Shown here one piece after another: positions 36,296 through 49,129 of a stretch of DNA of 64,000 nt. The stretch covers positions 2,872,501 through 2,936,500 of the forward strand of contig CP131056.1 of assembly GCA_030657355.1 (NCBI GenBank), read 5' to 3'. Source of the stretch: Radicibacter daui. GTDB taxonomy: Bacteria; Pseudomonadota; Alphaproteobacteria; Radicibacterales; Radicibacteraceae. The translations under genes were made by a program, and so were the position numbers. Within the stretch, counting starts at the first letter, position 1. The number at the start of each line of letters is the position of its first letter. The notes under the pieces were generated by a model, which was not told where the DNA came from, ran no database searches, and saw only the letters and a program-made list of their open reading frames with translations.

Positions 36296-38785
36296 ATGAG
36301 CATGCCCCCTTCCCCGACCCTGCCCCCCAACTTCACCGGCTGGTTTTCCAGCCGGGGCTGGGCGCCGCATGCGCACCAGCTGGCGATGCTGGCCGCGGCG
36401 GAAGCCGGCGAGGATGCGCTGCTGGTGGCGCCAACCGGCGGCGGCAAGACGCTTGCGGGTTTTCTGGCGAGCCTTGTGGAGCTGGCGGAGCGCCCCCGGC
36501 CGGGCCTCCATACACTCTATATTTCACCGTTGAAGGCGCTGGCCGTCGATATCCAGCGCAACCTGCAAAGCCCGATTGCCGAGTTGCGCCTGCCGATCCG
36601 GGCAGAGACGCGCACCGGCGACACCCCGCCCAACCGGCGCCAGCGCCAGCGACGCGATCCGCCCAATATCCTGATGACGACGCCGGAGAGCCTCGCGCTG
36701 CTGCTGAGCCATGAGGATTCCCACAAGCTCTTCGGCGGCCTGCGCTGCATCATCCTTGATGAGCTGCACGCGCTGGTGGACAGCAAACGCGGCGAGCTTT
36801 TGTCCCTTGGCCTCGCCCGTCTCTCCCGCCTTGCGCCGAACTGCCGGCGCGTCGGGCTCTCCGCAACCGTAAAGGATATCCCGGCCCTCGCCCGCTGGCT
36901 GTCGAAGGATGCCACCGGCGCTGGCGTGCGCCTCGTCAAGGGCAGCTCCGGCAAGGCGCCGCAGATCGATATTCTCGTGCCCAGTGAAGGTTTGCCCTGG
37001 GGCGGGCATATGGGCTTCCAGTCCCTGCCCGATATCTACAAGCGCCTCAAGGCCACCACCGGCACCGCCATCCTCTTCGTCAACACGCGCGCACAGGCGG
37101 AGCTGATCTTTCAGGAGCTGTGGCGGATCAATGAAGATGGCCTCGCCATCGCGCTCCACCATGGCAGCCTTGCCGTCGAGCAGCGGCGCAAGGTGGAAGC
37201 CGCCATGTCGGCCGGAGCGCTGCGCGCCGTCGTCGCTACCTCCTCGCTTGATCTCGGTATCGACTGGGGTGCGGTCGATCTCGTCATCCAGATCGGCGCG
37301 CCCAAGGGCGTGAGTCGCCTCTTGCAGCGTATCGGCCGCTCCAACCACCGTTTCGATGCCCCGTCCGTCGCCGTGCTCGCCCCGGCCAACCGGTTCGAGG
37401 TGCTGGAGTGCGAGGCTGCTATCGGCGCCATCCGGGCGAAGGAGCTGGATGGCGAACCGCCAGGCCCCGGCGGGCTGGATGTACTCGCCCAACACATAAT
37501 CGGCATGGCCTGCGCCGGTGCCTTTCTTGGCGAGGAGCTCTTTACCGAAATCCGCCGGGCGGCACCCTACTCGGCGCTCAGCCGGCAGGATTTCGAGGCG
37601 GTGCTGGATTTCGTCGCCACCGGCGGTTACGCCCTCAGCGCCTATGAGCGGTTTGCCAAACTCTCCCGCGATGAAGAGGGGCGCTACCGCATTGCCAACA
37701 AGCGCCTCGCCCTCTCCTACCGGCTCAATGTCGGCACCATCGTGGAAGAGCCGCTGATCAAGGTGCGGCTCAAGAACGGGCGCACGCTGGGAGAGGTGGA
37801 GGAATATTTCATCAACGGCCTTGCTCCCGGCGATACCTTCCTCTTTGCCGGGCAGCTGCTCACCTTTGCCGGTATCCGCGAGCATGATGCGCTCTGCATC
37901 AAGGGCGGCGGACAGGACCCGAAGGTGCCGGTCTATGCCGGCGGCCGACTGCCGCTGACGACGGACCTGTCGCAGCGCGTGCGCCAGATCCTCGCCGATC
38001 CCGGTGCCTGGCCACATCTGCCGGAAGAGGTGTGGGAGTGGCTGCGCCAGCAGCATTACCGCTCCGTGCTGCCCAAGGCGGACAGCCTGCTGATAGAGAG
38101 CTTTCCCCAACGCAACCGTGAATTTCTCGTCGCCTACTGCTTTGAAGGCCGCAACGCCCACCAGACGCTCGGCATGCTGCTGACCCGCCGCATGGAGCGT
38201 ATGGGGCTGGGGCCGCTGGGTTTTGTGGCGACCGACTATGTCATCGCCATCTGGTCGGTGAAGGCGCCCAATGCGCAGCAGACCCGCGAGCTGTTTGATG
38301 AGGACATGCTGGGCGATGACCTTGAGGCCTGGATGGCGGAAAGCTCCATGCTGCGCCGGGCCTTCCGCAACGTCGCCCTCATCGCCGGCCTTATCGAGCG
38401 CCGGCATACCGGGGACGAAAAGAAAACCGGCCGGCAGGTCACTTTCTCCAGTGACCTTATCTACGACACGCTGCGCAGCCACGACCCCGGCCATATCCTG
38501 CTGCGGGCCACACGGCAGGACGCCGCGCGCGGCCTGACCGACATCCGCCGGCTGGGCGAGGCGCTGAAACGCGCGCGTGGGCACATCACCTTCCGCCGGC
38601 TGGAGCGCATCTCTCCCCTCGCCGTGCCTATCCTGCTGGAGATTGGACGCGAGCAGGTTTACGGCTCTGCCCTTGATGATTTGCTGGCAGAAGCGGCGAA
38701 TGAACTGGTGGAAGCGGCCATGCCGGACCTCGCCCCCAAGCAGCACAATGGGGACGAGGGCCGGCAGCACAGCCTGAGGCTTTAA
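36296..38785 (+). CDS. Ligase-associated DNA damage response DEXH-box helicase
   Basis: An 829-residue Lhr-type superfamily 2 helicase, the helicase of the four-protein ligase-associated set. It has motif I VAPTGGGKTLAGF near residue 43, motif Ia YISPLKALA, motif II LDELHALV, motif III LSATV, motif IV TAILFVNTRAQAE, motifs V/VI SSLDLGIDWG and QRIGRSNHR, and the Lhr winged-helix and C-terminal domain. All catalytic motifs are intact. In most genomes it adjoins the ligase, exonuclease and PdeM; here the neighbours on its right are unrelated genes. Confidence 0.93.
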   Translation: MSMPPSPTLPPNFTGWFSSRGWAPHAHQLAMLAAAEAGEDALLVAPTGGGKTLAGFLASLVELAERPRPGLHTLYISPLKALAVDIQRNLQSPIAELRLPIRAETRTGDTPPNRRQRQRRDPPNILMTTPESLALLLSHEDSHKLFGGLRCIILDELHALVDSKRGELLSLGLARLSRLAPNCRRVGLSATVKDIPALARWLSKDATGAGVRLVKGSSGKAPQIDILVPSEGLPWGGHMGFQSLPDIYKRLKATTGTAILFVNTRAQAELIFQELWRINEDGLAIALHHGSLAVEQRRKVEAAMSAGALRAVVATSSLDLGIDWGAVDLVIQIGAPKGVSRLLQRIGRSNHRFDAPSVAVLAPANRFEVLECEAAIGAIRAKELDGEPPGPGGLDVLAQHIIGMACAGAFLGEELFTEIRRAAPYSALSRQDFEAVLDFVATGGYALSAYERFAKLSRDEEGRYRIANKRLALSYRLNVGTIVEEPLIKVRLKNGRTLGEVEEYFINGLAPGDTFLFAGQLLTFAGIREHDALCIKGGGQDPKVPVYAGGRLPLTTDLSQRVRQILADPGAWPHLPEEVWEWLRQQHYRSVLPKADSLLIESFPQRNREFLVAYCFEGRNAHQTLGMLLTRRMERMGLGPLGFVATDYVIAIWSVKAPNAQQTRELFDEDMLGDDLEAWMAESSMLRRAFRNVALIAGLIERRHTGDEKKTGRQVTFSSDLIYDTLRSHDPGHILLRATRQDAARGLTDIRRLGEALKRARGHITFRRLERISPLAVPILLEIGREQVYGSALDDLLAEAANELVEAAMPDLAPKQHNGDEGRQHSLRL

Positions 38786-38793
38786 AGACGGGG

Positions 38794-39828
38794 TTACTTC
38801 GCGGTCGTACGAATGTAAGTCTTGGTCTCGGGGTCGTAGATCCACTCGAGATAAGCATCGAGCATCACATGGGCGGTGCTGAAGGCGCCTTCGTCATAGT
38901 GATAGACCTCGACCTCTCCGGTCAGCGGGTTCCACTCTCCCATGACGTTGATCTTCACGTCTTTTTCCTGCGACGAACAGTTCAGATAGAACTTTTTGCC
39001 GCGGATCGTGGTCTCAATGCACTCGTACTGCTTGGACTGCTTTTCCGTCAGGATATCGATATCGACGGTGCGGCGTGTCACCGAAATTTGCATCGCCAGC
39101 TGCTGCTTGCCGCGATAGGTCTGCGCCACATGACTGGCCGCCTTGACCTTGTTGAGCACGGTCGATTCATCCATCAGCATCCAGCTGCTCTTGGTGATCG
39201 CCTGATTCCGCTCGAACCGCTCCACCGCTTCGGCGATGGAATTCTTCTTTGACAGGTTGGCGCTTTTCAGCAGGTGGTCTGTCTTGAACTTGCTGGTGAC
39301 CTTGAATTTGAGAGGGTTAGCCTTCACCAGCAACCCAAAGGCCATCGGCGCCGAAATTTTGACTGTCTGGGTGGGGCCGTCACTGGATTTGACCGCCTTC
39401 TTCATCTGCTCAAGCGCTCCTTTGAGCGCATCCTTCACCACCTTGTCGAACCAGTCCGACAGATACTTTTCCTGCTTTTCCTTGAAGTCGTCACAGAAGT
39501 TCTGCCATTGCTCTGCTTCCCAGCTCAAGGTGTCCTTCCTGGACTTCAGATAAGCGGTGTAGTTCTGGTCGGTGACATCGCGCATCTCGCTCAGGATATC
39601 GCGCGCATACTGATCAAAGGTCTGGTCGATCAGGAGCTTGAAGGCGTCGCCGCCGCAGCGGTCATATTCCTGCTTCTTGATATGCTTGACGCCTTCCAGC
39701 ACCAGCACCGCCTTGCCAGGCAGCTTGTAACTGTACTGTTCGTCAAAATCGATGTCTGGGTGCAACCCTCTGGGATGCGATACGCGGTGCTGAAAACGTG
39801 TTTTGTACTCGGTGATAAATTTCACCAT
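38794..39828 (-). CDS. Unknown lysine-rich protein
   Basis: A 344-residue soluble protein I do not recognise. It is rich in Lys, Asp and aromatic residues, with helical stretches (residues 60-145), a Ser/Thr/Lys-rich middle and a C-terminal part ending YLEWIYDPETKTYI. It has no signal peptide or membrane helix. DNA of this gene is less GC-rich than both flanks and it is oriented against the helicase, eight bases from its stop. That suggests insertion between helicase and PdeM. It may be recently acquired; no function is assigned. Confidence 0.7.
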   Translation of the reverse strand: MVKFITEYKTRFQHRVSHPRGLHPDIDFDEQYSYKLPGKAVLVLEGVKHIKKQEYDRCGGDAFKLLIDQTFDQYARDILSEMRDVTDQNYTAYLKSRKDTLSWEAEQWQNFCDDFKEKQEKYLSDWFDKVVKDALKGALEQMKKAVKSSDGPTQTVKISAPMAFGLLVKANPLKFKVTSKFKTDHLLKSANLSKKNSIAEAVERFERNQAITKSSWMLMDESTVLNKVKAASHVAQTYRGKQQLAMQISVTRRTVDIDILTEKQSKQYECIETTIRGKKFYLNCSSQEKDVKINVMGEWNPLTGEVEVYHYDEGAFSTAHVMLDAYLEWIYDPETKTYIRTTAK

Positions 39829-39937
39829 TTCTCGTCACCCCCCGGGTCAGAGACAGACCGGCACAGTTCCGGACGGGGCGGATGCTACCATAGTTAGAAA
39901 GTTTGGAGGAAAAATCGGCTGCGACCGCGGGTTCCCC

Positions 39938-40654
39938 TCAATTGTCCTCATCCACCTCGGGCGGCGGCAGGTCGAGAGCGGGACGGTGGCGGCGGTGATA
40001 GTTGAGGCGCAGGGCGTCAACCAGCAGCACGATGGGCAGCGTGATGAGCACGGCGAAGATGGTGTCGCTCAGGAACTGCGCCCCCACGGCCATGCGCAGG
40101 AAAGAGACGACAAGGCCGGTTACCAGCAGATAGAGCGACCAGCCGAGCCGCTTGCCGGGCGGAAACAGCAGCACGATGGCGGCCACCGAGACGATGAAGG
40201 CGACATCGCCGGCAATGAAGGAGCAGTTGCTGCTGCACTGGTCCGCCGGTACCCAGGCCGGGGTAAAGCTGGCGTCGCCGCCAAAAAGCGCAAGATCCCG
40301 CGGTCGCGCCCGGCCCCACAGGCCCTTGAAAATAACGTTGGCGACCAGCGCATTGGCCAGCACCATCGAGGCCACCGCCGCCGGCACATCCCAGAAGCGC
40401 AGCCCCTGCCGGTACCGCAGAACCAGCGCGATGAGCGGCAGCAGGGCCAGCACCAGCAGCAGGGGCCGGCGATACTCGTCGAAAAAATCGCTCAGCGGAT
40501 TGCTGGCAAATACCCAGCCATGCCGGCCCATGAAGTGGTTGGCCACCTGAACATCAAGCCAGGGATCGAGGAAGAAGAGCTGCGCCACCACCGCGGCAGC
40601 CACGATGATCCACAAAACACCCCACAGCCGAATGATCACGCCCTGGTTGTTCAT
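39938..40654 (-). CDS. PAP2-superfamily membrane protein with altered catalytic motifs
   Basis: A 238-residue protein with about six membrane helices and the PAP2 phosphatase layout. Motif C1 is intact (K110...R117-P118). C2 reads NCSFIAGD where SGH is expected (Asp150 replaces His). C3 reads R187...Gln193...Asp197, so the nucleophilic histidine is replaced by Gln. Family members dephosphorylate lipids such as undecaprenyl pyrophosphate or lipid A. This one may have lost that activity or use another mechanism. Confidence 0.78.
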   Translation of the reverse strand: MNNQGVIIRLWGVLWIIVAAAVVAQLFFLDPWLDVQVANHFMGRHGWVFASNPLSDFFDEYRRPLLLVLALLPLIALVLRYRQGLRFWDVPAAVASMVLANALVANVIFKGLWGRARPRDLALFGGDASFTPAWVPADQCSSNCSFIAGDVAFIVSVAAIVLLFPPGKRLGWSLYLLVTGLVVSFLRMAVGAQFLSDTIFAVLITLPIVLLVDALRLNYHRRHRPALDLPPPEVDEDN

Positions 40655-40832
40655 GGCTCCCTTTCCACCGGCAGTGCGGCGCCGCCTCCTGCCGTCCTGC
40701 CGCCTGTCTTACAGCCAAATGTGCGGACGAAAAAGCCTCTTGGCCGCCGGCAGCCCAATCTGCTGCACCGGGTCTTTTGCCCCCGTGCCCACACCGCTAT
40801 GCTCCCGGAAATTCCCCGGCATCTTTCAGGGC

Positions 40833-41558
40833 ATGGACAGGCAAATGAGCATCGCGGGCACCGGCATTGCCGCCGGAGCCAATCTCCATCTGGGCGCCGA
40901 AGCCTTTGTTGCCCTGCAGGGCGGCGCGCTGTGGCATCCGGCCCGCACGGCGTTGCTGGTTGCCGACCTGCACCTCGAAAAAGGCACCAGCTTTGCCCGC
41001 GCCGGCCATCTGCTGCCCCCTTACGACACCCGCGCCACGCTCACCCGCCTCAAGGCCCTGATCGACCGGCTGCAGCCGCAAGCGGTCTATTGCCTTGGCG
41101 ACTCCCTGCACGACCGGCGCGCCGCCGACAGGCTTCTGGCGCCTGATCGTGCCTTGCTGGACGAACTCATGGCCCACGGCGGCTGGTGCTGGATTACCGG
41201 CAACCACGACCCCGATCTGCCAGACTGGCTAAAGGGGGAGCGCGTGGCCGAAGCCCGCCTCGGCGATATCGTGCTGCGGCACGAACCTTCGGCCGCGCTT
41301 GGCGGTATGGAGCTGGAAATCGCCGGACATCTGCATCCCAAGGCAACGGTGCCGCTGCGGGGCACCGCTATCAGCGGGCGCTGCTTCATCGAGAACGGCC
41401 GCCGCCTCGTGCTGCCGGCCTTCGGGCAATATACCGGCGGGCTCAATGTGTTTGCCGACCCGTTCCGGGCCCTGTTTGCCACACGCTTTCACGCCCATGT
41501 CATCGGGCGGGAGCGGCTGTTTACCTTTCCAAGCGACAGGCTGGCCCGCGCGGCATGA
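40833..41558 (+). CDS. pdeM: Ligase-associated phosphoesterase PdeM
   Basis: A 241-residue calcineurin-like metallophosphoesterase: VADLHLEKG with the first metal ligands, CLGDSLHD, ITGNHDPD, and the GHLHPKA histidine pair, all intact. PdeM is the endonuclease/phosphoesterase of the ligase-associated damage response. The two candidate ATGs at 40833 and 40845 both fit. It lies 2 kb beyond the helicase and directly before the photolyase gene, forming a local DNA-repair pair. Confidence 0.9.
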   Translation: MDRQMSIAGTGIAAGANLHLGAEAFVALQGGALWHPARTALLVADLHLEKGTSFARAGHLLPPYDTRATLTRLKALIDRLQPQAVYCLGDSLHDRRAADRLLAPDRALLDELMAHGGWCWITGNHDPDLPDWLKGERVAEARLGDIVLRHEPSAALGGMELEIAGHLHPKATVPLRGTAISGRCFIENGRRLVLPAFGQYTGGLNVFADPFRALFATRFHAHVIGRERLFTFPSDRLARAA

Positions 41559-41653
41559 GACGCTCCGGCTCCGGAAGACAAGGCGGTGATCTGCCGCTTT
41601 GCCCGCACCGTACCAGCAAGAGAGTTTCCAACCCGCCCGAGCCCTGATTGCCC

Positions 41654-43087
41654 ATGACCAGCACGGACCTGACCCTTATCTGGCTGCGCCAGGATCTGCG
41701 CCTTGCCGACAACCCCGCCCTGCTGGCCGCCGGCAACGCACCGGTCATCCCGGTCTATATCCTGGAGCCAGAGGGGGAAGACCCGCATTATCCCGGCGCG
41801 GCTGCCCGCTGGTGGCTGGAAGGCAGCCTCAGGGCCGTTGCCACAGCCCTGGAAGCCCGTGGCAGCCGGCTGATCCTGCGCCGGGGCAAACCGGGTGACA
41901 TGCTGGACGCCCTCATTGCCGAAACCGGCGCAACCCGGGTGTTGTGGAACCGCTGTTACGATCCCGTCTCCATCGCACGGGACAGTGCCATCAAGGCAGC
42001 ACTCAGCGCCCGGGGCATCGCTGCCCAGAGCTTCAACGGCTCCCTTCTGCATGAGCCCTGGGAACTGAAGCCGGCAACAGGCGGTCATTTCCGCGTCTTC
42101 ACACCCTTCAGCAAGGCCGCGCTAAAGCGGGGTGAACCCTTCAAGCCCGCCCCGGCTCCGACGCACCTTTCCGCCCCGGCCGAGTGGCCCGGAAGCGAAG
42201 ACCTTGCCGACTGGGGCCTGACCCCCACCCGGCCGGACTGGGCGGGTGGTTTCCGTGCGCGCTGGATACCGGGAGAGGCGGAAGCAAGCCGCCGGCTGGA
42301 GCAGTTTCTGAAGGACGGGATCGGCGCTTATGCCGACAGGCGCGACAGACCGGATATTGCCGGCGCCACCTCCTGCCTCTCGCCCTATCTGCATGCCGGC
42401 AATCTCAGCCCGCGGCAGGTGTGGCACGAATTGCGGCGCGCCAGTGCTGGCAAGGCTGATAGCCAGGGTGCCGACAAGTTCGCCAGCGAGCTCCTGTGGC
42501 GGGAGTTCTGTTACCACCAGCTCTATCACAATCCGGGGCTGCGCGAGGCGCCGCTCGATGCCCGCTACCGGCACTTTCCCTGGCGCGAGGATGCAGCGGC
42601 GCTCACGCGCTGGCAACGCGGGCAGACCGGCATTCCCATCGTCGATGCCGGTATGCGCGAGCTCTGGGTCACCGGCTTCATGCACAACCGGGTGCGGATG
42701 ATAGCCGCCTCCTTTCTGGTCAAGCATCTGCTACAGCCCTGGCAGACCGGGCGGGCCTGGTTTGAGGACACGCTGGTGGATGCCGACCTTGCCAGCAACT
42801 CGGCAAGCTGGCAGTGGGTCGCCGGCTGCGGTGCCGATGCCGCGCCCTATTTCCGCATCTTCAACCCCGTGCTGCAGGGTGAAAAATTCGATCCCGACGG
42901 CGCCTATGTGCGCCGCTGGGTACCGGAACTGGCCGCGCTGCCGGCTGCCTGGATCCACAAACCCTGGCTCGCCCCGCCAGCCGTCGCACCGGCAAGGGCA
43001 GCCTATCCCGCACCGCTGGTGGACCTTGCCAGTGGGCGCCAGCGGGCGCTGGATGCCTTTGCGTCGCTCAAGCAGCAACAAAACTAA
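41654..43087 (+). CDS. phrB: Deoxyribodipyrimidine photolyase
   Basis: A 477-residue class I CPD photolyase. The antenna domain starts IWLRQDLRLADNPAL. The FAD domain includes ELLWREFCYHQLYHN, TGIPIVDAGMRELWVTGFMHNRVRM, FLVKHLLQPWQTG and DADLASNSASWQWVAGCG. It repairs UV pyrimidine dimers using light. ATG 41654 is chosen; the TTG six bases upstream is less likely. Its position 95 bp after pdeM may allow co-transcription. Confidence 0.95.
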   Translation: MTSTDLTLIWLRQDLRLADNPALLAAGNAPVIPVYILEPEGEDPHYPGAAARWWLEGSLRAVATALEARGSRLILRRGKPGDMLDALIAETGATRVLWNRCYDPVSIARDSAIKAALSARGIAAQSFNGSLLHEPWELKPATGGHFRVFTPFSKAALKRGEPFKPAPAPTHLSAPAEWPGSEDLADWGLTPTRPDWAGGFRARWIPGEAEASRRLEQFLKDGIGAYADRRDRPDIAGATSCLSPYLHAGNLSPRQVWHELRRASAGKADSQGADKFASELLWREFCYHQLYHNPGLREAPLDARYRHFPWREDAAALTRWQRGQTGIPIVDAGMRELWVTGFMHNRVRMIAASFLVKHLLQPWQTGRAWFEDTLVDADLASNSASWQWVAGCGADAAPYFRIFNPVLQGEKFDPDGAYVRRWVPELAALPAAWIHKPWLAPPAVAPARAAYPAPLVDLASGRQRALDAFASLKQQQN

Positions 43088-43272
43088 ATATCCGGCGCGG
43101 TTGCGGCCAACAGCCTGCCTCAAAAGCGGCCAAGTCGCCCCTTAGGCCTGCGGCGCAGCAGCTGAGGGCATAATATCTGCTGTCCATGCCGGGGCTGAAT
43201 CCGGCATGCTGGAAGGCGTGCCCTCCGGATGCCACCAGCCACCGCCGGCACAGAACAGAAGAGGAAACGGGA

Positions 43273-45138
43273 TTGCCAGAGGCACCGCTGCGCCGCCTGA
43301 GCCGGCTCAGAAGATTTTTCCCGCGCCGCCGCCGTGGCAGCGTGTCGCTGCGCTATACGCTGATCACCCGCATCGCCGGGCTGATGATCACCGCCCTCGG
43401 TCTCGTGCTCGGTCTCGGCCTCGTCAGCGGCCTCAGCAATACCGACAGCCTGCTGCGCCAGCAGGCACAACTCATCCTCGACAAGCAGGCCGCCGCGGTC
43501 AATGCGGTGATGACCCCGATCGAAGCCGAGGCACAGTGGCTCGCCCGCCAGGTGGCGGAGGGCACGCTCGATGTCAACGACCGGGATGAAATGGTGGCGG
43601 CCCTGCGCGCAGCGACGGCAGGAACCCCCCAGGCACTGGGCGTCGGTGTCATCTTCGAAAACCGCCACCTGATCAAGGTGGAGCGGGAAGGTGCAGAGGT
43701 GCAGGAAGAGGACCTGTCGCGCGAGACGAAGGTCACACGCATGCTTGAGGAAGAACGCGCCGGCAAGGGCGGGCACTGGGCCGAGCCGGTGGTGGTGGCA
43801 AGCGAAGGCCAGACCCTGCTCAACTACCGCATTCCACTCCTCAAGGACGACAGGTTCCTGGGTGTTTTGATGATCGGCCTTTCGGTTGCCGATATCTCCC
43901 GCCAGCTGACCTTCGAGAACGACGTGCAGGGTATCACCAGTTTCGTGCTCTACGGGCGCGACCGCGTGGTTATCCACCCCGCCCTCTCCGACTGGCGGCC
44001 GGTGGACAAGCACACACCAGCACTGCCGCGAGCCCGCGATATCGGAGACCCCGTGCTGGCCCAGTGGGCCGAGCATCCCGACAAGGTGCATGACGAGGGC
44101 ATGGTGGCAGGCGGCAACACGCATCTCTATTCGCTGCGTGTCCCCGGTGAAGGCAGTTATGTCATGCTAACCCGCTCGGAAACGCGCTTCGGCGTCGTGC
44201 CCTGGACCATCGGCGCCCATATGAGCATCGACCTCGTCGCCCGCGAGATGCAGCGCCTGCGCTGGGCCGCGATGACCGGCCTGGTCGTCGTCGTCATCGC
44301 CATCCTTGTGGCGCTGGCCTTCGGCCGCAAACTTGCCCTGCCGACACTGCGCCTCGCCCGCGCTGCCCGGCAGGTGCAGGAAGGGGAATTCGCCACCATC
44401 GCACCCCTGCCCGGTGACACCGTGCGCGAATTCGACGATGCGGCGCGTGCCTTCAACCTCATGGTGCGCGGCCTGCGCGAGCGCGAGCAGATCCGCGATC
44501 TCTTCGGCAAATACCTGCCGGAGGCGGTGGCCACCGCCCTGCTCAAGGATGGCGGCGAGATGACACCGATCAGCACCGAAGCAACGGTGCTGTTCTGCGA
44601 TCTCGAAGGCTTCACCACCCTTTCCGAGCAGCTTGCGCCGCCCGAGATCGTGACCATGCTGAATGAATATTTCTCCACCCTCGTCGAGGTACTGGAGCAG
44701 CATGGCGGCGTCGTCACCCAGTTCCAGGGCGATGCCATCCTCGCCACCTTCAACGTGCCGCTACCGTCGGAAAAACATGCCGAATGCGCCATCAGCGCGG
44801 CGCGCGATATTCTGGAAGAGGTCAAGCGGCGGCGCTTTGCCGGCCACCGGCTTGGCTGCCGCATCGGCATCTGCACCGGCCAACTGATGGCCGGCGCCGT
44901 CGGCGCCAGCGGCCGGCTTTCCTATACCGTGCATGGCGACGCGGTAAATGTCGCCGCACGGCTTGAGCAGATGAACAAGGAATGCGGCACCAGCCTGCTG
45001 GTGTCCGCCCGGACGGCTGAACTGGTGGGGTATGAGGGGCTGGTCGGGCTGCCGGAGCGCAGCATTCGCGGCCGGCAGGAGAGCATGCGCCTCTATACGG
45101 TGGCGCCGGCGATCAAGGTGGTGGCGGCAAACGGCTGA
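43273..45138 (+). CDS. Membrane class III adenylate/guanylate cyclase with Cache-like sensor and HAMP
   Basis: A 621-residue protein: a basic N-terminus, a membrane helix near residues 30-55, a periplasmic Cache-like domain (about 60-310; LNYRIPLLKDDRFLGVLMIG), a second helix, a HAMP linker, and a C-terminal cyclase domain. The metal aspartates are D443 in FCDLEGFTTLSEQ and D487 in FQGDAI, and the transition-state motif is YTVHGDAVNVAARLE; all are conserved. TTG 43273 has an AGAGGA site; ATG 43186 gives 29 poor-looking extra residues. It makes cAMP or cGMP in response to an unknown external signal. Confidence 0.88.
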   Translation: MPEAPLRRLSRLRRFFPRRRRGSVSLRYTLITRIAGLMITALGLVLGLGLVSGLSNTDSLLRQQAQLILDKQAAAVNAVMTPIEAEAQWLARQVAEGTLDVNDRDEMVAALRAATAGTPQALGVGVIFENRHLIKVEREGAEVQEEDLSRETKVTRMLEEERAGKGGHWAEPVVVASEGQTLLNYRIPLLKDDRFLGVLMIGLSVADISRQLTFENDVQGITSFVLYGRDRVVIHPALSDWRPVDKHTPALPRARDIGDPVLAQWAEHPDKVHDEGMVAGGNTHLYSLRVPGEGSYVMLTRSETRFGVVPWTIGAHMSIDLVAREMQRLRWAAMTGLVVVVIAILVALAFGRKLALPTLRLARAARQVQEGEFATIAPLPGDTVREFDDAARAFNLMVRGLREREQIRDLFGKYLPEAVATALLKDGGEMTPISTEATVLFCDLEGFTTLSEQLAPPEIVTMLNEYFSTLVEVLEQHGGVVTQFQGDAILATFNVPLPSEKHAECAISAARDILEEVKRRRFAGHRLGCRIGICTGQLMAGAVGASGRLSYTVHGDAVNVAARLEQMNKECGTSLLVSARTAELVGYEGLVGLPERSIRGRQESMRLYTVAPAIKVVAANG

Positions 45139-45146
45139 AGGGCGCG

Positions 45147-45692
45147 TTACTGCCGGGGCGGCCAGTCGCCCTGCCAGCGATAGACCTCGCAGCGCGGACT
45201 GTCGGCATTGCGGAACAGGTAGACCTGATCCCTCTCGGCCACCTTATTGGTATCAATGAGATTACTGCCGATTTTTGCTGCCCCGAGCGTTGCCGGCTTT
45301 ACCTCGTCGACGAACTTGACCTGCCACAACCCCTGCACCTGTTCCTCGAACAGCCCCTGACGGCAAAGGCGCGTCAGATCGCGATCAAAGCTGCCGGCAT
45401 TGGTGTAGGGCCCGATAAGCCGGGCGACGACACGCGGTTTGATCGTCGGCACGAAGGGGTGTGACCAGGGTGCCGGCAGCACGAAGCCGGGGATACCCTG
45501 CTGCTGCCCCTCGTCCGGCGCCACCTGCCGGGGATTTGCCGGATAACCGCCCTGCGGCTCGTTGACCGGCGGCGGGTCAGTGGAAGGCCCGGCGGCCCGG
45601 GCGGACAAGACCGGAGCGGCAGCCAGCAGCAGGGCAACGAGCCCGCCCCGCACACCAGCCAACGTCCTTCCCCGCGCCAACCCGCCTGTCAT
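45147..45692 (-). CDS. Secreted or envelope protein of unknown function
   Basis: A 181-residue protein with a signal peptide (residues 1 to about 33, GLVALLLAAAPVLSARA) and then a Pro-rich linker. The globular C-terminal part contains SFDRDLTRLCRQGLFEEQVQGLWQVKF and ends CEVYRWQGDWPP. Two cysteines could pair. I do not recognise it. It converges on the cyclase gene. The start at ATG 45692 is chosen because longer frames lack a coherent signal peptide. Confidence 0.6.
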   Translation of the reverse strand: MTGGLARGRTLAGVRGGLVALLLAAAPVLSARAAGPSTDPPPVNEPQGGYPANPRQVAPDEGQQQGIPGFVLPAPWSHPFVPTIKPRVVARLIGPYTNAGSFDRDLTRLCRQGLFEEQVQGLWQVKFVDEVKPATLGAAKIGSNLIDTNKVAERDQVYLFRNADSPRCEVYRWQGDWPPRQ

Positions 45693-45747
45693 ACCCTTCA
45701 AAGCGTCCCTTCTGCCCGCCGGAAAACCCGGCAAAAGGCATGATAAC

Positions 45748-45789
45748 GCAACAAGGGGCGCAAGATGAAATTCTCGCGCCCCTTGTTGC
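45748..45789. terminator. Long perfect hairpin between two minus-strand genes
   Basis: GCAACAAGGGGCGC/GCGCCCCTTGTTGC forms a 14-base-pair perfect stem with a 14-base loop, downstream of the 45832 gene. It is probably its terminator. Confidence 0.6.
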
Positions 45790-45831
45790 AATCAAACGAG
45801 CCCGCAAAAGCAGGTGGAAGGCGGTTTGGGT

Positions 45832-46437
45832 TCAGCCGCCGGGGCGACGGCTCAGCTGCGAGGCGCGGCGGCTGCGCACCATGCCCCACAGGGTAAAGAG
45901 CACGATGGCAACCAGCAGCGTGGCAAGGCCGCTGCGGGCATCGAGCGCCGCGGAGGGCGCCTCAACGACTTTCTTTCCGCTGGTCACGAGTGCGCCGGCC
46001 GCCGCGGCGAGTGGCAGGATGCCCGTTGCCGGCTTGGCGGCAACCGCAGCCGGGGTTGCAACCGGGGCAGGGTTGGCGCCAGACTGAAGCTGCGCGGCAA
46101 GATCGGCGATCTGCTGGTTGCGGCGGGAAAGCTGGTCTTTCAGCTCCTCCACCTGGCCGGCGAGAAAACGCTGCTCCTTAAGCGCGGCATCAAGCCGTGC
46201 CTGTAACTCGGCGGCAGAGGCCATAGAGACAGGTTCGGCGACAACAGGTGCAGCCACCGCGGTGTCAGCTTTGGCGAGCGGAGGGAGAATGGTGCTGGCG
46301 GCAAGAAAAGCGAGGGCAGCAAGAGCAACAATGCGCAAGGCAAAGGCTGCTGCCGGTCGCCGCCAGAAGGGCCGCGGGGGCGCGGCGTCAAACCTTCCAG
46401 ACATGGCGAAACTTTGGCCCGTGTGGTTTGCGGTCAT
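45832..46437 (-). CDS. Membrane-anchored coiled-coil protein, unknown function
   Basis: A 201-residue protein with a hydrophobic segment near residues 34-55, a coiled coil (residues 75-115, AELQARLDAALKEQ and QVEELKDQLSRRNQQ), an Ala/Pro-rich linker and a second membrane helix near the end (LATLLVAIVLFTLWGMV). It looks like a small envelope-spanning or division/secretion accessory protein. No family is recognised. ATG 46404 is an alternative start. Confidence 0.6.
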   Translation of the reverse strand: MTANHTGQSFAMSGRFDAAPPRPFWRRPAAAFALRIVALAALAFLAASTILPPLAKADTAVAAPVVAEPVSMASAAELQARLDAALKEQRFLAGQVEELKDQLSRRNQQIADLAAQLQSGANPAPVATPAAVAAKPATGILPLAAAAGALVTSGKKVVEAPSAALDARSGLATLLVAIVLFTLWGMVRSRRASQLSRRPGG

Positions 46438-46463
46438 TTCCGAAAAATCGCATAAAATTACTT

Positions 46464-48050
46464 TTAATCTGTTAACGCGCCGATTTGCACCAGACTGTCC
46501 GCCGCCTGCGGCAGAAAGTCCCAGTCGAGCGAGAGCAAAACCGGCTCGCTCAAAGTGAAGCCGCAGCGCCGCCGCGGTGCCGGTTCTGCCGACTGGAAAG
46601 CCAGCGTGCCGCCTAGGCCGGGCCCCAGCGAGCGCACCGGGCCAAACTTCTCAACCGTATGAGCTCTCGCCCATGCTTCCAGCGCCTGTCTTACCGGTTT
46701 TTCCGGCGGGGCGGCCACCCGGCAAACCGGCACCAGCGTGCCGTCTCTATCCCGACCGGCAAAGGTCAGTTCCAGCGCGCCATTGGCCGGATCGCGCTGG
46801 AGATAAAGGAGGGCGAGCCGGGTCGTCAGCGGATCATGCGGCCAGTCAACCCAGCCCGGCCCTCCATCCGGTCCGGCACTGCCATAGCCCGCTGTCGGAT
46901 GCTTCAGCATCAGCCCACGATGCCCGGCAGAGCGCGCCTGCCGGCGCAGGGCAGCGACGGAAGCCGCATCCGGAAGAGTAAATTGCCCGGCAATCTCCAC
47001 CGGCCCTTCCCCCAACGCACGCCCCCAGGCCTCCAGCCGCTGCCGGCGCCCGGCAAAGGGCAGCGCGCGCAAATCATCACCCTGCCAAAGCAGGTCAAAA
47101 GCCACAAAAGACACCGGCGCTTCGGCGAGCAGGGCGGCATTGGGCCGGGCACGGGCAAGCCGGCGCTGAATGGCGGCCAGATCACCACCGCCGCCAGTCC
47201 TGACGATAAGAAGCCCTTCGACAACACTCTCCGCACCCTGGAGCGGTAGCGCCTGAAGCTCCGGAAACCGGGGGGCCACATCCTCTCCGCTCATCAAATG
47301 CAGCCGGGGGGCGCCGCCCTCGCCGGCAAGGCGCAGCTGCGCGCGGATACCCGCCAGCTTCCACTCGGCGACATAACCACCGGCAACCACCCAAGCTTCC
47401 CCTGCCGGCGGCGCGGCGGCGCGCATCGGCTCGATCAGGCCGACCGGCCGGTTGCCGGCCGGCGACGGCCCCCGCCCTTCCAGCCAGGCAAAGAAGGGAA
47501 CAAAAGGCGGTTCCAGCGCGCTCCAGATCGCACGGATGTCTGCAGCGCTCCGCAAAGGCGCCAGCAGCGCCAGCGCTTCCTGCAACAGCTCAGGCGTCAC
47601 ACCAACCGGCGGCGGCGCGCCCAGCCGCAGAAGCACCCGCCGCGCGCCTGCCGGCAACCGGTCGAGCAGCGCTTCCAGCACAGAAAGCTGTCCTTCAGAC
47701 CCGGTCGCCGCGTCGGCTAACAGAGAAAGACAGTCGGCGAGGCCCGGCGCCGAAGAAGTGTCATCGCCGGCGCTCTGCGGCCTTTCCCAGCCAAGGGCAA
47801 CGGCCTCCGCCAGATCGCCGACATGTTCATGCGCCAGCGCCAGCAGCACCGGATCAAGCCGGCGCGCTGCGAGGCGGCGGATCAGTGGGGCCGTGGGTGG
47901 CTTGACCGGCGCACGCCGCGCCAGCAAGGCCAGCGCCCAGCCCCGGTCCGGATCGGGCGTTGCCGCAAAATAAGCAACCAGATGACGCCGGCGCGCTTCG
48001 GCGGAGGGGGCCAGCACCAGCGCCTCCAGCAAGCGGGTAAAGGCAATCAT
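46464..48050 (-). CDS. Ligase-associated ATP-dependent DNA ligase, catalytically degenerate
   Basis: A 528-residue protein of normal length for the damage-response ligase family (TIGR04120). It keeps the nucleophile Lys231 and Arg236 in EWKLAGIR, but the KxDG aspartate is Ala233. The SRTG-type arginine is Met253, the DGE glutamate is Leu280, the motif IV EG glutamate is Arg378, and motif V WxKWK has become WVDWP (residues 400-404). The C-terminal RFPR...RWDK motif VI is also lost. The frame is intact, so this looks like a pseudo-ligase, perhaps structural. It overlaps the exonuclease stop by four bases (ATGA). Confidence 0.85.
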   Translation of the reverse strand: MIAFTRLLEALVLAPSAEARRRHLVAYFAATPDPDRGWALALLARRAPVKPPTAPLIRRLAARRLDPVLLALAHEHVGDLAEAVALGWERPQSAGDDTSSAPGLADCLSLLADAATGSEGQLSVLEALLDRLPAGARRVLLRLGAPPPVGVTPELLQEALALLAPLRSAADIRAIWSALEPPFVPFFAWLEGRGPSPAGNRPVGLIEPMRAAAPPAGEAWVVAGGYVAEWKLAGIRAQLRLAGEGGAPRLHLMSGEDVAPRFPELQALPLQGAESVVEGLLIVRTGGGGDLAAIQRRLARARPNAALLAEAPVSFVAFDLLWQGDDLRALPFAGRRQRLEAWGRALGEGPVEIAGQFTLPDAASVAALRRQARSAGHRGLMLKHPTAGYGSAGPDGGPGWVDWPHDPLTTRLALLYLQRDPANGALELTFAGRDRDGTLVPVCRVAAPPEKPVRQALEAWARAHTVEKFGPVRSLGPGLGGTLAFQSAEPAPRRRCGFTLSEPVLLSLDWDFLPQAADSLVQIGALTD

Positions 48051-49129
48051 GCGTCGCCCTCCCCCGCCTCGGCCTTCTCGTCTTCCCCATCGGAATAACC
48101 GACAAGGCTGAGGGCCCGCGCCTCGATCCCGCGCTGGCGCGCGAAATGGATGAGCGCGGCTTCCTCGCCATGCGTTACCCAGAGCCGCTCGCAACCGGTC
48201 TCCACAATGGTTTGGCGCAGTTCGTCCCAATCGGCATGGTCGGAGATGACAAGCGCCAGCTCCGCCCCCTGCTGGGTTGCCCGCTTGCGCACGCGCACCC
48301 AGCCCGAGGCAACCGCCCGTACCGGCTCAGGCAGGGCAGCGAGCCAGCCCTCGGCCGATGCGTTGGGTGGTGCCAGTAACACTTCGCCGGCAAGCTCGGC
48401 CGGCCGGGCATCGGCCAGCAGCCTGAGCTCACCAAGATCGATCCCGACGCTTTGATAGAGCGCGCACATTTCCCACAGCGCCTGATGCACCCAGATCGGC
48501 CGCTCATGGCCGGCAAGCCGGAGCAGGCGGATAACCCGCTGCGCCTTGCCAAGGCTGTAGGCACCAACCAGATGCGCCCGCTCTGGAAAGAGGGTGAGCG
48601 ATGCCAGCAGCCGGCCAATCTCCGCTTCTGCCGGCGGATGGCGATAGACCGGCAGGCCGAAGGTCGCCTCGGTCACGAAGGTGTGGCAAGGCACCAGTTC
48701 GAAGGGGGCACAGGTCGGGTCCGCCGCGCGTTTATAATCGCCGGAGACGACCACGACCTCCCCCTGCCACTCCAGCCGCACCTGCGCACTGCCCAGCACA
48801 TGGCCGGCCGGATGCAGGCTGATGCGGACCCCGCCGACAGTCACGCTCTCGCCGGAGGCCAGCGCCTGACCGGATTTGGGCTTCACCTTGCGCACGCCCA
48901 TGACGGCAAGCGTTTCCGGCGTTGCCAGCACATGCCTGTGACCGCCGCGAGCATGGTCCGAGTGGCCGTGGGTTACGATGGCACGTTCCGCCACGCGCAT
49001 CGGGTCAATATAAAGGCCGGCCGGCTCGACATAGAGGCCGACAGGCGTCGGATAGATCCAGCGCGCCGGGTCACGCCCGGCAAGCCTTGCGATCCCATAG
49101 TCGCCCGTTGCTGCCGCCTGCTGCTTCAA
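48047..49129 (-). CDS. Ligase-associated MBL-fold DNA exonuclease
   Basis: A 360-residue metallo-beta-lactamase/beta-CASP nuclease: THGHSDHARGG metal motif near residue 53, LHPAGHVLGSAQV, VVSGDYKRAADPTCAPFE, AYSLGKAQR and VISDHADW. All are normal for the exonuclease partner of the ligase set, unlike the ligase itself. TTG 49129 starts the protein, with an AAGG upstream. It forms a two-gene operon with the ligase. Confidence 0.92.
   Translation of the reverse strand: MKQQAAATGDYGIARLAGRDPARWIYPTPVGLYVEPAGLYIDPMRVAERAIVTHGHSDHARGGHRHVLATPETLAVMGVRKVKPKSGQALASGESVTVGGVRISLHPAGHVLGSAQVRLEWQGEVVVVSGDYKRAADPTCAPFELVPCHTFVTEATFGLPVYRHPPAEAEIGRLLASLTLFPERAHLVGAYSLGKAQRVIRLLRLAGHERPIWVHQALWEMCALYQSVGIDLGELRLLADARPAELAGEVLLAPPNASAEGWLAALPEPVRAVASGWVRVRKRATQQGAELALVISDHADWDELRQTIVETGCERLWVTHGEEAALIHFARQRGIEARALSLVGYSDGEDEKAEAGEGDA

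Follow-up and report, generated by a model that had tools for sequence, protein, structure and literature searches.

The window analysed here, a stretch of 64,000 nucleotides from Radicibacter daui, carries a complete repair module of ligase, exonuclease, Lhr-Core helicase and PdeM, which meets the linkage criterion for TIGR04120. On the forward strand lie the Lhr-Core-type ligase-associated DEXH helicase (36296..38785; TIGR04121, 1112 bits), with its Walker A and DELH motifs intact, and the PdeM metallophosphoesterase endonuclease (40605..41558; TIGR04123, 207 bits), whose match begins only at residue 97, so that its true start is probably downstream. The reverse strand encodes the ligase-associated MBL/beta-CASP exonuclease (48047..49129; TIGR04122, 430 bits), with all active-site motifs intact, and the ligase gene itself (46464..48050). 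The stop codon of the exonuclease overlaps the start codon of the ligase in an ATGA (48047..48050, minus strand; junction GACGCATGATTGCC), from which translational coupling is inferred. The exonuclease-ligase-Lhr-PdeM cluster is widespread, and its job is unknown (PMC10140301).

The module (36296-49129) extends over 13 kb in two separated parts, with some of its genes inverted: on the plus strand, the helicase and PdeM genes face the ligase-exonuclease pair on the minus strand, an order absent from the other loci that we read. Between the helicase and PdeM genes lies a 344-amino acid open reading frame (38794-39828, minus strand) with no Pfam match and a G+C content of 0.56 against about 0.65, likely an acquired gene that split the cluster. 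A gene of the photolyase/cryptochrome family directly follows PdeM (41648-43087, plus strand), so that several DNA repair genes are clustered here.

Of special interest is the product of the minus-strand gene 46464-48050, hereafter P0001. Its frame of 528 amino acids is open and without internal stops, and encodes a full-length ATP-dependent DNA ligase of the TIGR04120 type with DNA-binding, nucleotidyltransferase and OB domains, in which the catalytic motifs are degenerate. TIGR04120 describes the cisplatin damage response ATP-dependent DNA ligase (LigB-type) and has a curated cut-off of 400 bits. In a profile search, residues 3-524 of P0001 matched positions 2-523 of the 526 in the profile, thus meeting the expectation of full-length co-linear homology; its score of 297 bits, however, misses the whole-protein threshold. 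Intact full-length relatives mostly reach 600-840 bits in the 387 alphaproteobacterial genomes surveyed, and in a phylum-wide survey the gene in our window was the only listed full-length match under the cut-off.

We mapped the catalytic residues by aligning P0001 with 147 intact TIGR04120 members. In motif I (47352..47360, minus strand, as are all the motifs that follow) K231 is kept (AAG) and D233 is replaced by alanine (GCG); in motif Ia (47292..47294) the arginine R253 is a methionine; in motif III (47211..47216) G279 is kept and E280 is a leucine; in motif IV (46902..46919) E378 is an arginine, with lysine 383 kept; and in motif V (46839..46853) WxKWK has become WVDWP (K402 to D, K404 to P). 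The motif VI region (46515..46574) reads RRRCGFTLSEPVLLSLDWDF in place of RHKSGxAMRFPRxxRxRWDK, with R501 replaced by S, R504 by V, R509 by D and K512 by F. Each of the lost residues is 99-100% conserved among the intact members. R236, G234, R493, G497, P503 and D511 are also retained. The assignment of Leu280 to the motif III glutamate hinges on a one-residue gap in P0001, and no alignment restored the D-G-E triad of this motif.

Only two of the 12 core catalytic columns (about 99.9% conserved in the 147 intact relatives) are kept in P0001, namely K231 and K383, against 67 of 118 other near-invariant columns (Fisher p=0.008), which indicates that loss is concentrated on catalysis. With two of 12 core residues, P0001 fails the test for active ATP-dependent ligases, which is intact nucleotidyltransferase motifs. 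A sequencing error or frameshift can be rejected because most of the changed codons differ by two or three nucleotides each, there is no stop codon, and homologous losses occur in other genomes. We thus consider it very likely, indeed close to certain, that P0001 is a pseudoenzyme, with the loss of adenylylation and nick sealing inferred from its sequence.

A preliminary description of the gene, made without database searches, had reported the catalytic losses at Ala233, Met253, Leu280, Arg378 and WVDWP, and these held in the alignment, Leu280 with the above caveat. Its statement that only the lysine was spared held in part, since K383 of motif IV survives as well, and motif VI, described as gone, is degenerate and not absent. 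Two of the outcomes that would have refuted it, intact catalytic residues elsewhere and sequencing errors, both came out against, which confirms the observation. Its claims of a 528-residue open frame and a preserved surrounding fold were borne out by the frame, the profile match and a structural model. This AlphaFold2 model, built with an alignment of intact relatives, reached a pLDDT of 89, and meets the expectation of a ligase fold: the PDB structures that matched it best, along its entire length, were DNA ligases from archaea and humans, ligase IV among them. From its sequence alone, P0001 gave no confident fold (pLDDT 36); the model thus leans on the family alignment and shows compatibility with the fold, without being independent proof of it.

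The domains of P0001 are unequally conserved. Its DNA-binding domain keeps 23 of 35 near-invariant residues (29-30 of 35 in two other dead-ligase lineages described below, genus g213 and genome G284), and the net charge of this domain shows no shift towards acidity relative to intact ligases. The OB domain keeps 19 of 48, suggesting that this part may be decaying, and has a net charge of -2 against a mean of +5, a loss of positive charge that argues against full encirclement of DNA.

P0001 is not alone. The low-scoring members of the TIGR04120 survey proved to be dead ligases too, and 11 more genomes, from five other alphaproteobacterial families, carry ligases of the same kind. The preliminary description had proposed looking for shared changes in relatives; no close relative is available, and these families provide the comparable catalytic losses. 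In genus g213 (family f80; five species) the motif I lysine is replaced by Q or L and the aspartate by S, P or Q, and motifs III, IV, V and VI are degenerate, whereas the ligases of its sister genus, g80, are intact. The remaining dead-ligase genomes are G066, G115, three of family f161 (G284, G783, G784) and two of family f239 (G779, G780). The motif I lysine is lost in most of these other lineages, and only L184 (G780) also keeps it. L184 retains both K and D of motif I with most else lost, while its sister L185 (G779) lacks these two as well; the pair appears to capture a stepwise decay of catalysis, which makes the K231 of P0001 weak evidence for residual activity. The most diverged copy, L179 (5813-7351, minus strand), scores about 100 bits, has no Pfam match and has changed all 12 core catalytic columns; it still occupies the ligase position, adjoining the exonuclease, helicase and PdeM genes. 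Across the six families the dead ligases remain full length despite deep divergence. Four of them, L150 (G284), L182 (G784), L183 (G783) and L184 (G780), score above the NCBIfam TIGR04120 cut-off and would be named functional ligases by annotation. Our search of the open-access literature, which did not extend to subscription papers, turned up no earlier description of a DNA pseudo-ligase occurring in nature.

How many times catalysis was lost could not be resolved (one to about six independent inactivations), because of long branches. In a ligase tree computed without the motif columns the dead copies grouped together (99, then 97), and these same copies have the longest branches; when placed in the tree one at a time, they were scattered. 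The exonuclease tree gave three to five changes in bootstraps and a minimum of two is required by the helicase tree, while a constrained single dead-ligase clade was not rejected on the exonuclease tree with an earlier, smaller set (p-AU 0.88). A single ancestral pseudo-ligase clade is thus unsupported by the exonuclease, the helicase or the one-at-a-time placements, and several independent inactivations are likely, but a single one is not excluded. Gene order was rejected as a sign of common origin, since the divergent pdeM-hel / exo-lig order is common in intact clusters too.

Purifying selection continued after catalytic loss in two other dead-ligase genera. In g213 the dead ligase has an omega of about 0.31, with 0.29-0.39 in four bootstrapped pairs (confidence intervals between 0.24 and 0.60), measured at unsaturated dS (0.10-0.52), and all three domains taken separately are at or below about 0.40. 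The dead ligase of f161 gave 0.18 (CI 0.14-0.23). For comparison, omega is 0.23-0.33 for the g213 exonuclease, 0.07-0.19 for its helicase and 0.05-0.09 for the intact ligases of g80; constraint thus acts on dead ligases, though more weakly than on living ones. For P0001 itself dN/dS is unmeasurable, as the available relatives share only its class and none is close. Its end branch in the ligase tree is 2.6-2.7, against medians of 0.42-0.58. The exonuclease, too, evolves somewhat faster in these lineages: its end branches measure 0.6-1.4 in G066, G115 and the genome of P0001, whereas the median lies near 0.3-0.4.

The ligase protein is tied to the exonuclease. Of the 387 alphaproteobacterial genomes surveyed, 112 have the exonuclease, and precisely these 112 have the ligase protein, intact or dead (dead in six), so that the exonuclease seems to need the ligase protein and not ligation. 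The exonuclease adjoins the ligase in every dead-ligase locus read, and its active-site motifs are intact in all the dead-ligase genomes examined. Among the control genomes, Caulobacter vibrioides alone passed the family cut-off for the exonuclease. Two genomes of family f35, G034 (L152) and G240 (L153), retain no more of the ligase than a short C-terminal piece each, in open frames of 201 and 137 amino acids, respectively, without adjoining cluster genes; in the 387-genome survey no exonuclease match was found in G034, and G240 is not among the listed matches. These pieces are either remnants or a reused OB domain.

In our preferred reading, held with moderate confidence (probability about 0.6), P0001 is a pseudo-ligase that the exonuclease/Lhr-Core/PdeM repair module keeps as a subunit for DNA binding or docking, without any catalytic role. 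P0001 would have lost nucleotidyl transfer and nick sealing and been kept as a full-length folded subunit, whose body may still bind DNA ends or nicks, may dock and position the beta-CASP exonuclease, or both. Docking is inferred, without interaction data. Final sealing would fall to the NAD+-dependent LigA; apart from it and P0001, no ligase was found in this genome. A PF01068 search of the genome yielded no second ATP-dependent ligase, and takeover by such an enzyme was rejected on this ground. That dead ligases always lie beside an intact exonuclease suggests a structural repair job independent of ligation. Docking is further supported by natural exonuclease-ligase fusions, in which the nuclease is N-terminal to the ligase DNA-binding domain (PMC10140301), and by the precedent of ligase IV, whose DNA-binding domain binds the beta-CASP nuclease Artemis (PMC3664939). 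Against a simple version of this reading stand the poorly kept OB domain of P0001 with its lost positive charge, and the faster exonuclease of these lineages. The preliminary description had likewise proposed a pseudo-ligase under selection, perhaps acting as a scaffold for the exonuclease and helicase while another ligase does the joining. Selection is supported by omega in the other dead-ligase genera and by the 112/112 coincidence with the exonuclease, not by dN/dS of P0001; the scaffold remains an inference, without binding data; and joining by another ligase is consistent with the presence of LigA.

One alternative is that the gene is simply decaying, ligation having become dispensable and constraint relaxed, and that the frame is still open merely through coupling to the exonuclease or because little time has passed. 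The faster evolution of the dead ligases, as in the long end branch of P0001, their raised omega relative to intact ligases, and the bare C-terminal remnants of G034 and G240 would fit such a process. We nonetheless consider it unlikely: omega is well under 1 in two dead-ligase genera, in six families full length has persisted through deep divergence, no surveyed genome has the exonuclease without the ligase protein, and it is the catalytic columns that are preferentially lost. Also unlikely is a sealing-incompetent binder of nicks or DNA ends that acts alone, for example in end protection or in restraining the exonuclease, without forming a complex with it. The well-kept DNA-binding domain, with no added acidity, and the constant pairing of the two genes agree with this possibility, but physical association is favoured by the natural fusions and by the overlap of the two genes, and the charge of the OB domain speaks against full encirclement of DNA. 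Finally, an atypical enzyme, in which the motif I and motif IV lysines support an altered nucleotidyl-transfer or AMP-binding reaction, is very unlikely: K231, R236, G234, G279 and K383 are indeed kept and there are known pseudoenzymes whose catalytic residues have migrated (PMC10211241), but in motifs III, IV, V and VI other residues stand in place of the conserved acidic and basic ones, and the lysine itself is gone in most other dead-ligase lineages.

The retention of P0001 as a non-catalytic subunit can be extended to a bolder reading, which we hold to be somewhat less likely than not: that, across a broad range of Alphaproteobacteria, the ligase of the LigB cluster serves the beta-CASP exonuclease mainly as a structural subunit, with ligation repeatedly discarded while the protein itself stayed obligatory. 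Such a ligase would be nature's parallel to what ligase IV does without catalysis, and would have arisen several times. Natural dead ligases separate ligation from all other roles of the ligase protein; going by them, catalysis should be dispensable and the exonuclease should need the protein. The structural role of ligase IV can be compared with these natural cases.

Among known systems, P0001 most resembles the TIGR04120/LigB ligases of the same cluster in length, three-domain fold, gene neighbours and whole-protein identity (30-39%), and differs from them in the replacement of 10 of 12 core catalytic residues and in its score under the curated cut-off. Human ligase IV shares with P0001 the fold (VIA Z 23-24 to LigIV structures) and a beta-CASP nuclease partner. 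Both Artemis and the bacterial exonuclease belong to the MBL/beta-CASP nucleases. Lig4 without catalytic activity continues to promote repair, apparently by recruiting another ligase, so that catalysis is dispensable for part of its repair function, as in our reading of P0001 (PMC9638927, PMC11754673). Unlike P0001, ligase IV is an active enzyme whose inactive forms were engineered, and no involvement of Ku or XRCC4 has been shown for P0001. The partner interface also differs: the bacterial exonuclease is too short to include a counterpart of the Artemis epitope (residues 485-495), so that the two interfaces must differ in detail. ImuB of the ImuA-ImuB-DnaE2 module, inactive according to PMC3765255, is likewise a bacterial repair enzyme without catalysis that a damage-response module has retained; its fold is unrelated, and in its case an active polymerase stands beside the inactive paralog, whereas here it is the cluster's own ligase that is inactive. 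In the CPSF-100/CPSF-73 pair (PMC10211241) a dead enzyme also partners an active beta-CASP nuclease, but the dead partner there is a homologue of the nuclease, and here it is a ligase.
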